From Chitinophaga pinensis (GTDB lineage: Bacteria > Bacteroidota > Bacteroidia > UKL13-3): a DNA stretch of 64,000 nucleotides. The notes under the pieces are model-generated. The model searched no databases. It saw only the letters and a program-made list of their open reading frames with translations, and had not been told where the DNA came from. How positions within the stretch are numbered: position 1 is the first letter of the stretch; every line of letters starts with the position of its first letter. Position numbers and translations under genes: made by a program. The stretch lies in NCBI GenBank assembly GCA_945870425.1, contig CAMBSD010000013.1:1-64000 (forward strand). The letters are read 5' to 3'. Positions 8,598 through 23,740 of this stretch are shown here, one piece after another.

Positions 8598-8622
8598 TCT
8601 ATAAGATTAAGTAATGTAGACT

Positions 8623-8727
8623 TTTCGACTCCGCTCAAAGTGACATTACTATTGTAATAACACATTAACCCAATAACGAAATAACCCAATAACGCTATTT
8701 TTCATAACGAATTAACAAATAACCAAA
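8623..8727. repeat. Intergenic repeat: GACTCCGCTCA element plus AATAACG heptamers
   Basis: TTTCGACTCCGCTCAAAG with GTGACAT following occupies 8623-8646. Behind it, up to the ATG of the DUF2027 gene, are several AATAACG/AATAACC units, e.g. 8673-8695. The same two components recur inside the SNF2 helicase gene at 19081-19205, and the GACTCCGCTCA core recurs in the 23.1-kb mosaic. Confidence 0.65.
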
Positions 8728-17215: not shown

Positions 17216-20200
17216 TTGGTTAATATTTTGCTGGTAGTAAACACGCAACCTTTTCTTTTGGTATACACCCTAGTGAATCATCCTTATTTAGGTTTGATCA
17301 TAGAACCTCATGTAGTTCAGGTGAATACTTTGGGCAAGTTTAGCCTTACCCACCAGCGTGTTTTTAGCCGCACGGCCTCCTATTTTAAAAAAGGATTAAG
17401 TGCCCTCGACTTTCAACTTTTAGAATTATTGGATGAAGTGGATGATGATTTTTTGTTTCGAAAGTTTCATCCTGACAATAAGAAGAAAATTCGTACAGCA
17501 GAGTTTTTCTCTAAACAATGTTCGGAGGAAATGTTTAACGAAAAAATTCGTCCTTATATTGAAGAGAAGATTGGAACCGTAATTGAAAAATTAAAGGGTA
17601 AAACCATCTATAAAACAGGTAATGATAATAATCCTACATCGGTTGAATTGCAAGTGAGTTCAGAGAAAGCTTCTGTGCTATTTCATTTCAGAAAAGATGG
17701 GGAAGGCACTCGATATTTTCCTACCATCAAGCACAAAGGACAGCGCATTGAGTTCATGTTTAAAGGGGCTCAAATCATCACACAAAATCCTGCTTGGATG
17801 GTTTTAGGCAATCAGTTGATAGATTTTGAAAAAAATGTAGATGGCAAAAAGTTGGTTCCTTTTCTTAATAAACGTTTTATACAAATTTCAAAAACTGCTG
17901 AAGAGAATTATTTTCAAAAATTTGTTACAAAGTTGGTTGAAAATTATGATGTATATGCAGAAGGCTTTGACATAAAAACACATGAGGCTGATATGAAGCC
18001 CTTGCTAAGTATGCAAAGCCTTTTTGATAACAAGGATATAGCCTTGAAACTGCAATTTGGTTATGCAGATGCAGTGTTTGATTATGCCAGTCAGCAAAGG
18101 GTGCAAGTTACCCTTAGCAAAAAAGAGGACAGCTATATTTTTTACAGAACAAAGCGCAGTCGCAAGCGCGAGGATGAGGTAAAGGAATTGCTTGATGGAA
18201 TGGGAATCATTCAGTTTAATCAATCATATTTTAAACTAAAAAACAGCAAACTTCCTCCTGCTGCAGGTACCTTGCTTAGTGAAGAAGCTACTAACAAATA
18301 CGATTTTTTAGAATGGTTGAATGAAAACCATGAAGTGTTGAAGCAACACAAAATCAAAATTATTCAAAATGAAGAAAGTTCAAGTAAATATTTTATTGGT
18401 AATCGTGAGATAAAGATTGAGGTAAAAGAACAGAAAGATTGGTTTGATGTGCAGGCCCTAGTTAAGTTTGGCGAATTTAGTTTTCCCTTTCTTTCCTTAC
18501 GCGAATATATACTGAAAGGCAAGAGAGAATTTATTTTGCCCAATGGTTTGATTGCTATTATACCCAACGAATGGTTTGGTAATTTGAGGGGTATTCTTGA
18601 ATTTTCTAAGAATGATGACGATATTCAACTAGATAAGCATCATATAGGTTTACTTGATGAAATTGCCAATCAAGGTGGGAAATATTTACAACTTAGCGAT
18701 AAGTTAGAGCAAATAAAAAACTATGGGCAGATAAAAGAAATGGCTTTGCCTGAAAAATTTGCAGGCGAGTTGAGACCTTATCAAAAGGCAGGTTTTGATT
18801 GGTTTTATTTTTTAAAAGAAAATCAATTTGGTGGTTGCTTAGCCGATGATATGGGTTTGGGTAAAACCATACAAACTTTGGCATTACTGCAAAAAGAAAG
18901 GGAACTATACATAAAGCAAGTAGGGGAGAGTCGCGTTGATTTGGAGCCTAAGATTGTTTTTGAAGATAGAACTAATAAGCCACAACATGCTGCACCCATT
19001 GTGCAACTTGATTTGTTTGCTTCTACTGCTCATACCGAGAAAAAAAAGACTACAGAATCTGCGAATGCTACTATTTCAATAACAAATAACGAAATAGCAA
19101 ATAACGCAATAACGAATATCGAACCAACACCTTTCGACTCCGCTCAAGGTGACATATCGGTATTGAATAACGCAATAACCAATAACGAAGTTCCAAATAA
19201 CACGACCTTCATTCGCACTTCATTGATTATTGTTCCCAATTCACTGGTGTATAACTGGTATACTGAGGCAATGAAATTTACACCTGATTTAAAAGTGTTG
19301 ATACATACAGGAATTGGTAGAAGTAAATCAGCGCAGGTTTTTGCACGCTATGATTTGATTATTTCTACTTATGGAACTGCCCGTGTAGATGTGGATGTAT
19401 TCAAGGCTCTTAAGTTCAATTATATTATCTTGGACGAAAGTCAGGCAATTAAGAATCCACAATCATTGTCTTCAAGAGCAGTAAGACAATTAAAGTCTGC
19501 AAATAAATTAGTTCTAACGGGAACCCCAATTGAAAATTCGGTTCAAGAACTTTGGAGTCAATTATCGTTTATCAATTCGGGTATGTTTGGTAGCTTGGCT
19601 TCGTTCACTGAAAGGTTTGTATTACCTATCGAAAAAGGCAAAGACCTTCAAAAGTTAAACCAACTAAAAGCCATCATCAAACCCTTTGTTTTGCGCAGAA
19701 CCAAAGACCAAGTGGCACAAGACTTACCTGAAAAAACAGAGCAGGTGATTTATTGCCCGATGAGTGAGGAGCAGCAAGAAGCTTACGAAACGGTTAAAAG
19801 TTACTATCGCAACGAGATTATCAAATCCATACGTGAGTTGGGTTTACCTCGCAGTCAATTTACGTTATTGCAAGGCTTAACCAAACTTAGGCAAATTGCT
19901 AATCACCCAAAGCTTAGCAACGAAACCTATGAACATGGAAGTGGTAAGTTTAACGAGATTATGTATCGTGCTGAAACCGCACAGGCAGAAGGACACAAGG
20001 TACTTATGTTTTCACAGTTTGTTAAGCAGTTGCATATTTTTAGTAAGTATTTTGATGAAAAAGGCATCAAGTATGCTTACTTAGATGGAAGCTTGTCAAG
20101 CGAAGAAAGACAAAGGATTGTAAATGACTTCCAACAAAACGAGGGCATTTCATTCTTCTTGATTTCACTGAAGGCAGGCGGTGTTGGCCTTAATTTAACT

Positions 20201-20452
20201 TCCGCTGATTATGTGTTTATGATTGACCCTTGGTGGAACCCAGCAGTTGAAAGGCAAGCAGTGGATAGAGCACACCGTATAGGGCAACATAAATCGGTTT
20301 TTATTTATAAATTCATTACCAAAGATACCGTTGAAGAAAAGATACTTGCCCTTCAAGAAAAGAAGAAAAATTTAGCTGATAGTTTGATTACTACCGAAGA
20401 GTCTTTTATCAAAAATATCGATGTGGATGAGATAATGGATATACTTACTTAG
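17216..20452 (+). CDS. SNF2-family DEAD/H-box helicase with an internal repeat-derived linker
   Basis: A 1078-residue Swi2/Snf2 ATPase starting with TTG; no ATG lies near the conserved N-terminus, and the promoter position supports this start. Residues 1-500 are the N-terminal module of bacterial SNF2 proteins. The ATPase core has 'DDMGLGKTIQ' (about 543), 'LDESQAIKN' (about 738), 'LTGTPIENS' (about 766), 'FSQF', and motif VI 'QAVDRAHRIGQ' (about 1014-1024). It remodels protein-DNA complexes; the target is unknown. Residues about 617-663, between motifs I and Ia, are encoded by DNA that looks like intergenic repeats (see findings). All catalytic motifs remain in frame. Confidence 0.93.
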   Translation: MVNILLVVNTQPFLLVYTLVNHPYLGLIIEPHVVQVNTLGKFSLTHQRVFSRTASYFKKGLSALDFQLLELLDEVDDDFLFRKFHPDNKKKIRTAEFFSKQCSEEMFNEKIRPYIEEKIGTVIEKLKGKTIYKTGNDNNPTSVELQVSSEKASVLFHFRKDGEGTRYFPTIKHKGQRIEFMFKGAQIITQNPAWMVLGNQLIDFEKNVDGKKLVPFLNKRFIQISKTAEENYFQKFVTKLVENYDVYAEGFDIKTHEADMKPLLSMQSLFDNKDIALKLQFGYADAVFDYASQQRVQVTLSKKEDSYIFYRTKRSRKREDEVKELLDGMGIIQFNQSYFKLKNSKLPPAAGTLLSEEATNKYDFLEWLNENHEVLKQHKIKIIQNEESSSKYFIGNREIKIEVKEQKDWFDVQALVKFGEFSFPFLSLREYILKGKREFILPNGLIAIIPNEWFGNLRGILEFSKNDDDIQLDKHHIGLLDEIANQGGKYLQLSDKLEQIKNYGQIKEMALPEKFAGELRPYQKAGFDWFYFLKENQFGGCLADDMGLGKTIQTLALLQKERELYIKQVGESRVDLEPKIVFEDRTNKPQHAAPIVQLDLFASTAHTEKKKTTESANATISITNNEIANNAITNIEPTPFDSAQGDISVLNNAITNNEVPNNTTFIRTSLIIVPNSLVYNWYTEAMKFTPDLKVLIHTGIGRSKSAQVFARYDLIISTYGTARVDVDVFKALKFNYIILDESQAIKNPQSLSSRAVRQLKSANKLVLTGTPIENSVQELWSQLSFINSGMFGSLASFTERFVLPIEKGKDLQKLNQLKAIIKPFVLRRTKDQVAQDLPEKTEQVIYCPMSEEQQEAYETVKSYYRNEIIKSIRELGLPRSQFTLLQGLTKLRQIANHPKLSNETYEHGSGKFNEIMYRAETAQAEGHKVLMFSQFVKQLHIFSKYFDEKGIKYAYLDGSLSSEERQRIVNDFQQNEGISFFLISLKAGGVGLNLTSADYVFMIDPWWNPAVERQAVDRAHRIGQHKSVFIYKFITKDTVEEKILALQEKKKNLADSLITTEESFIKNIDVDEIMDILT
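19081..19205 (+). repeat. Intergenic-type repeat embedded in frame in the SNF2 gene
   Basis: AATAACG-type heptamers flank TTTCGACTCCGCTCAAGG (19132-19149), which is followed by TGACAT. This differs by one base in 24 from the intergenic element at 8623-8646. Translation gives 'NNEIANNAITN', 'PFDSAQGD' and 'LNNAITNNEVPNN', low-complexity Asn-rich sequence unlike the rest of the protein. Confidence 0.75.
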
Positions 20453-22992: not shown

Positions 22993-23740
22993 TTTGGGTC
23001 AAGTTGATTTTATGGGGAATATTTGCAAACAAATAATTATTTTACTTTTTCCTTTTGAAGCATCAAATTCCCGATATGTCGGGACAAAATGCTTCTTCCG
23101 TTCCGATGCATCGGAATCAAGGTGCCTTATGTTCGTTGAGCGGAGTCGAAACGCCATTTCGACTCCGCTCAATGAACGTTTCGAACAAAAAGATTTCTCC
23201 TTGCCACTGTATAGTTTTTGCGACTCTAACGGACGTCCTTGCGAGCGTGAAGTGTGGCAATCTGTTTTAAGAGATTGCTTCATCGCGATAATCGGGATTC
23301 GCAATGACGATTTCACAACACTACGAAAATCGTGCTTCGTATTTGGAATGCCTTGCTTTAAAAGAGCTTTACAGCAAACGCCTTCGACATTCATTAAATC
23401 TGCCTGAAAATGTTTTTGTTTTTTTGTGGATGGTGGATAATAGTAAGCATATTTGAGTCATGCCTATCCAATTTGCTATGACTCTTTTGCTCTTACATGA
23501 CGGCTTAGTATGCGCTGCAAGAAAAAAGCAAATTACATTTTCCAAGGTTTTATGTCAGTCTTTTCACGCTCAGCGGGATGTTTCGTTTGGAATTTATACT
23601 GAGCGGAGCCGAAGTATCAAGACAAAATGAAAGCTACATCCTATATTCATAATGTTTGTGTTCTCCAAAATTAGTGTTGAAAAAAATACTTTCCCCAACT
23701 TTTGAATATGACTTTTTTATCTGAACAATTTTTGAAATAA
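22993..23740. repeat. Gene-free mosaic of palindromic intergenic repeats
   Basis: About 750 bases without a credible gene. In order: GAAGCAT...ATGCTTC (23057-23095) around TCCCGA/TCGGGA; perfect palindrome TTCCGATGCATCGGAA (23101-23116); GTTCGTTGAGCGGAGTCGAA and its inverted copy (23131-23151 and 23157-23177, 5-base loop, one mismatch); an inverted REP-like pair (23238-23263 and 23272-23310); and CTGAGCGGAGCCGAAG (23599-23614). The stretches 23311-23580 and 23616-23740 show nothing recognisable. Long frames on both strands at 22994-23407 arise from the palindromes. Confidence 0.75.

Follow-up and report, generated by a model that had tools for sequence, protein, structure and literature searches.

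A composite repeat, made up of a REP-like hairpin and arrays of TAAC-type units spaced 7 or 8 nt apart, is carried in frame inside an SNF2-family helicase gene in the 64,000-nt stretch of DNA analysed here (the window). The most probable reading, at a probability of about 0.8, is that, in the ancestor of the genus, the composite inserted into, or grew in, a disordered helicase loop that could already be dispensed with, and was kept as harmless. The genome (2.96 Mb, 43 contigs) belongs to the Bacteroidota, and the named relatives compared with it were freshwater Bacteroidota metagenome-assembled genomes.

The helicase gene (17216..20452, + strand) was taken as the longest ORF, giving a protein of 1078 aa whose start codon is uncertain, and both of its Pfam domains scored highly (SNF2-rel_dom, E 6e-72; Helicase_C, E 9e-27). 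The hairpin copy occupies 19127..19154 on the + strand (ACACCTTTCGACTCCGCTCAAGGTGACA; 46.3 bits with model R1) and is translated as TPFDSAQGD, the whole element reading TPFDSAQGDI at residues 638-647. An AATAAC-type array precedes it at 19078..19120 (+), with units starting at 19078, 19085, 19093, 19100, 19108 and 19115 (spacing 7-8-7-8-7), and a second follows at 19166..19201 (+), with units starting at 19166, 19174, 19181 and 19196 (spacing 8-7-15). The reading frame is open across the element, and the motifs DDMGLGKT and PNSLVYNW on either side of the repeat segment are both intact, in agreement with the original prediction that the frame and the catalytic motifs had survived. The loop between motifs I and Ia is predicted to be disordered: in an AlphaFold2 model based on the family alignment, the part encoded by 18929..19207 (+; residues 437-529 of the 943-aa query) had a pLDDT below 50, mostly 22-34, and the loop core (22-34) showed no structure and an all-coil prediction. 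In the solved structure of an archaeal relative (PDB 1z63), about eight residues lie between the aligned blocks at the loop position.

Among family orthologues the motif I-Ia loop is hypervariable. The segment measures 138 aa in this genome and 158 aa in its sister, both with PFDSAQGD and Asn repeats; the other genera of the family have 80-110 aa and other families 38-96 aa, all of them repeat-free. Only this genus carries the repeat at the helicase site among the orthologues compared, so that the ortholog alignment bore out the expected absence of the segment outside it; these empty sites come from other genera at 47-76% protein identity and need not represent the exact pre-insertion sequence. 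A similar string in one relative (L041), PFDDGQDD, was considered as the same element and, judged on protein alone, looks coincidental. The two sister species differ by two in-frame indels of 30 nt (10 codons), each a multiple of the 15-nt coding unit, and their hairpin regions are identical. The sister assembly is without the genes that flank the intergenic copies.

The identity of the hairpin region, the retention of the linker in both members of the genus and the open frame of every in-frame array would all fit a domesticated linker, in which selection maintains the Asn-rich PFDSAQGD segment for a role in the helicase, such as that of a tuned spacer or of a segment for binding. This is improbable. 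No excess conservation of the hairpin between the sisters was found, as zero changes is an ordinary outcome seen in 20% of same-length windows of the SNF2 gene and in 7% of those in the PIG-L gene, and the MetH copy of the hairpin differs by two changes. The linker also differs by 20 residues in length between the sisters, is predicted to be disordered, and other members of the family do without it. Where the original prediction had the repeat 'domesticated, or at least tolerated', the variable disordered loop, the length difference between the sisters and the intact motifs thus speak for tolerance; domestication did not hold up, with the hairpin conserved no better than the rest of the gene and no sign of a linker function.

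To characterize the hairpin family, 111 copies were gathered from the genome and its taxonomic family. Common to the copies are TCGACTCCGCTC and a downstream TGACA. The repeat is a hairpin of REP type, because the bases flanking this core vary yet stay complementary across 50 distinct sequences: a variable 5-6 bp stem surrounds TCGACTCCGCTC and encloses a 12-nt loop, and tandem G-A mismatches, which were left unscored, could extend the stem. Pairing was found in 91% of stem cells compared with 69% in shuffles, and 85 stem cells were changed on both sides compared with 25.6 in shuffles, a value reached in 0 of 500 shuffles. One pair shows all four Watson-Crick types, and the covariation score was 0.677 versus 0.256 in shuffles, the signal being lost when partners were slid by one to three columns. 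The TGACA end (TGTCA on the reverse strand) was invariant in 50/50 aligned copies, partly by construction since the selection pattern required TGAC, and variants without the TGAC end were found once that requirement was dropped. With a covariance model (E <=0.1), about 46 copies were identified in the genome, 40 of 46 lying outside ORFs of at least 150 aa, and many copies form inverted pairs 44-49 bp apart. The existence of further intergenic copies beyond the single one first noticed is therefore established, with about 40 more outside genes. At 23134..23174 (strand unassigned), an inverted pair of a related core, TTGAGCGGAGTCGAA and TTCGACTCCGCTCAA, forms a large hairpin without the TGACA end; the genome has several pairs of this kind.

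The remaining 6/46 copies lie inside ORFs of at least 150 aa, all of them recognisable enzymes: SNF2, MetH, NadE, PIG-L, SufS and AroA. The helicase is thus one of at least six in-frame cases in the genome, of which the original prediction saw one. In MetH the copy (NVSSSGVENT) forms a 7-aa insert that is missing in other genera, and in SufS the copy (DVMSSGVETH) lies within an insertion relative to PDB 8kg1. The cases of NadE (IVISSGVERL, in a variable linker) and AroA (VDPSTPHRVT, in a variable stretch) are less clear. In PIG-L (TVTSSGVEKS) the same loop is empty, holds one hairpin or holds two in tandem among relatives. Empty orthologous sites were shown for MetH and PIG-L. Across the PIG-L family gene (L304-L329), this one loop appears as a repeated landing site, with empty, one-hairpin and two-hairpin states found even within one genus.

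The copies run forward in SNF2 and AroA and in reverse in MetH, NadE, PIG-L and SufS. This bears on a second, very unlikely explanation, that the element has a nucleic-acid role within the gene, for instance as an RNA hairpin acting on mRNA stability or translation. The stem covariation across the family would be expected of such a role, and the coding-strand RNA here has a predicted fold of -7.0 kcal/mol (z -2.5). For other members of the family, however, the fold was no better than that of shuffles, there is no excess conservation, and the presence of in-gene copies in both orientations argues against a common role at the transcript level.

The original prediction rested on the resemblance of the coding element to an intergenic one, and this was confirmed: TTTCGACTCCGCTCAAGGTGACAT (19132-19155) and TTTCGACTCCGCTCAAAGTGACAT (8623-8646) differ by one mismatch in 24 bases, and both copies are flanked by AATAAC units. 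A search with an 18-mer (<=3 mismatches) gave four matches in the window versus none in 100 dinucleotide shuffles, and a 24-mer (<=3 mismatches) gave six matches genome-wide versus none for the reversed control. The proposed 24-base unit requires revision, the match being sound and the true unit being a 28-nt hairpin plus array. The intergenic hairpin copy lies at 8618..8645 on the + strand (AGACTTTTCGACTCCGCTCAAAGTGACA; 45.1 bits), between the end of an upp-like gene (8597) and the start of an ORF (8729), and beside it is a TAAC-type array at 8656..8723 (+; spacing 8-8-8-8-15-8-7) with TAA in all three frames.

At three sites in the genome, namely the helicase, 8618-8723 and position 19275 of contig C3, AATAAC-type units begin no more than about a dozen bases after a hairpin. 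Runs of three AATAAC units are confined to three places in the genome, two of which adjoin hairpins. The intergenic composite at C3:19275 matches the in-gene copy of the sister species over about 96 bp at 80% identity (E 5.5e-18). The rarity of the composite elsewhere (the genome has three hairpins flanked by TAAC units) and its presence in the gene in both species could be taken to mean that the helicase gene is the source from which the intergenic copies were derived. Such an origin is highly improbable, as copies of the hairpin occur across the taxonomic family, most of them outside genes and most lacking the TAAC-type repeat of the helicase gene. Chance similarity or an assembly artefact is refuted by the empty shuffles and by the recurrence of the same structure, with different array lengths, in two separately assembled genomes, and nothing was found in its favour.

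The spacing of the arrays determines whether they can be read through. An AATAAC unit gives TAA in one of three frames, and the intergenic array, with its steps of 8, places stops in every frame. The in-gene steps alternate between 7 and 8 nt in both sister species, which is the only pattern of 7- and 8-nt steps that avoids the TAA frame. The alternation follows from the frame being open and hence does not in itself argue for selection acting on the linker; for this reason a strict claim of selection on the TAAC arrays was abandoned, the open frame alone accounting for the pattern. The alternation also explains why length changes come in multiples of 15 nt.

The preferred reading, an insertion into or growth within a tolerant loop, would run as follows. 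The composite would have entered or expanded within the already dispensable SNF2 loop in the ancestor of the genus, and only insertions without an in-frame stop would have survived. The hairpin can be read without a stop in four of the six frames, and the TAAC array stays open only with alternating 7- and 8-nt steps, giving a 15-nt, 5-codon unit, so that later gains and losses by slippage would keep the frame. The direction from intergenic to coding sequence, slippage as the cause of the length changes, and neutrality are the parts of this course that we infer.

Across the family, short-unit arrays lie beside hairpins in 11/226 flanks compared with 11/1738 intergenic control windows, an approximately eight-fold excess (Fisher P 8e-6). 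The arrays differ in sequence from site to site and mostly have a period of 7. At seven loci (L133, L146, L160, L168, L172, L178 and L180), hairpins are found next to unrelated heptamer arrays (TACATCG, TTTCCTA, TTGCCTA and others), which implies that the association between hairpin and array is not tied to one unit. In the QueA gene (L206:706-1962, - strand), a variable stretch contains a 36-nt array of 7-nt, AATTANG-type units and then a degenerate hairpin remnant (GFDSAQPE); this is a possible second coding composite. From the eight-fold array excess and the possible QueA case, it may tentatively be proposed that hairpins and short-unit arrays form one system, although we consider this rather doubtful: the hairpin would seed or target 7/8-nt arrays, perhaps through slippage where a fork has stalled, and new coding linkers would result wherever the loop was tolerant and the phasing free of stops.

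Intragenic REPs, in-frame palindromic elements and TAAC-based arrays are each already known. The closest resemblance is to the CGTC-tagged REPs, which are short palindromes that carry an unpaired tag on one side, CGTC often being TGTC; they are mostly intergenic, often dimeric, present in Bacteroidetes and unassociated with tyrosine transposase genes, and some lie wholly within ORFs, many of these being DNA repair and helicase genes (PMC3733652). The present repeat likewise has a TGTC tag on the reverse strand (TGTC or CCTC variants of CGTC being allowed), many mostly intergenic copies (40 of 46 outside ORFs) and inverted pairs. It also lacks a neighbouring tyrosine transposase gene; a search for a cognate Y1 transposase gave nine Y1_Tnp matches in the genome, none with a recognised hairpin copy within 1.5 kb. 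It differs in having a 5-6 bp stem and a 12-nt loop, rather than a stem of 8-9 bp and a loop of 4-5 nt, and in the companion short-unit arrays, which the paper on the CGTC-tagged REPs does not describe (PMC3733652).

The Rickettsia palindromic elements (RPEs) are in-frame repeats of about 150 bp found in unrelated genes as translational fusions (PMC10969869, PMC3733652). As in that system, the copies here lie in frame within unrelated genes whose orthologues can be without the repeat, the fusion here being predicted from the sequence. The sequence is unrelated to the RPEs, and one hairpin here amounts to about 10 residues plus the array. TAACTGA heptamer arrays are TAAC-based direct repeats of some Bacteroidetes, often located just upstream of start codons, and forward arrays place stops in all frames and so must end an ORF (PMC4679880). 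The arrays described here are also TAAC-based short direct repeats, but their units are AATAAC plus 1-2 nt and accompany a hairpin, with a lone TAACTGA in the C3 copy, and the helicase array is internal to an ORF because its spacing alternates between 7 and 8 nt. The GTAG REP/RAYT system likewise comprises hairpins in many copies, known also in coding regions, and atypical structures flank its Bacteroidetes subclass 2.6 (PMC6006769); unlike these, the present hairpins have no GTAG/GTGG guide at the foot and lie within 1.5 kb of none of the nine Y1_Tnp matches.

A limited literature search found no description of a hairpin combined with a stop-avoiding coding array. The newer points are this array and the eight-fold excess of short-unit arrays beside hairpins. 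A free-living Bacteroidota lineage joins the short list of bacteria with palindromic repeats in frame in enzymes, and alternating spacing is enough to turn an array rich in stops into coding sequence. With several genes affected per genome and with empty, single and double states of the PIG-L loop, the old question of how selfish repeats turn into coding sequence can be tested directly.

A different kind of in-frame insert was observed in MetH (L212:3-3083, - strand; contig C1, approximately 45-48 kb), where a DUF559 nuclease domain occupies residues 446-546; the MetH of the sister species also carries the domain. A literature search found no paper on DUF559 insertions. Among relatives (L298, L299, L300, L302, L303 and L297), in-frame DUF559 domains were found in LeuRS (at two sites), an Eco57I methylase, HsdR, a CoA-transferase III and a PAS/SpoIIE protein. 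Most junctions carry palindromes of the CTCCCC..GGGGAG type, and the DUF559 insert may represent a mobile element that is bounded by palindromes and inserts in frame.
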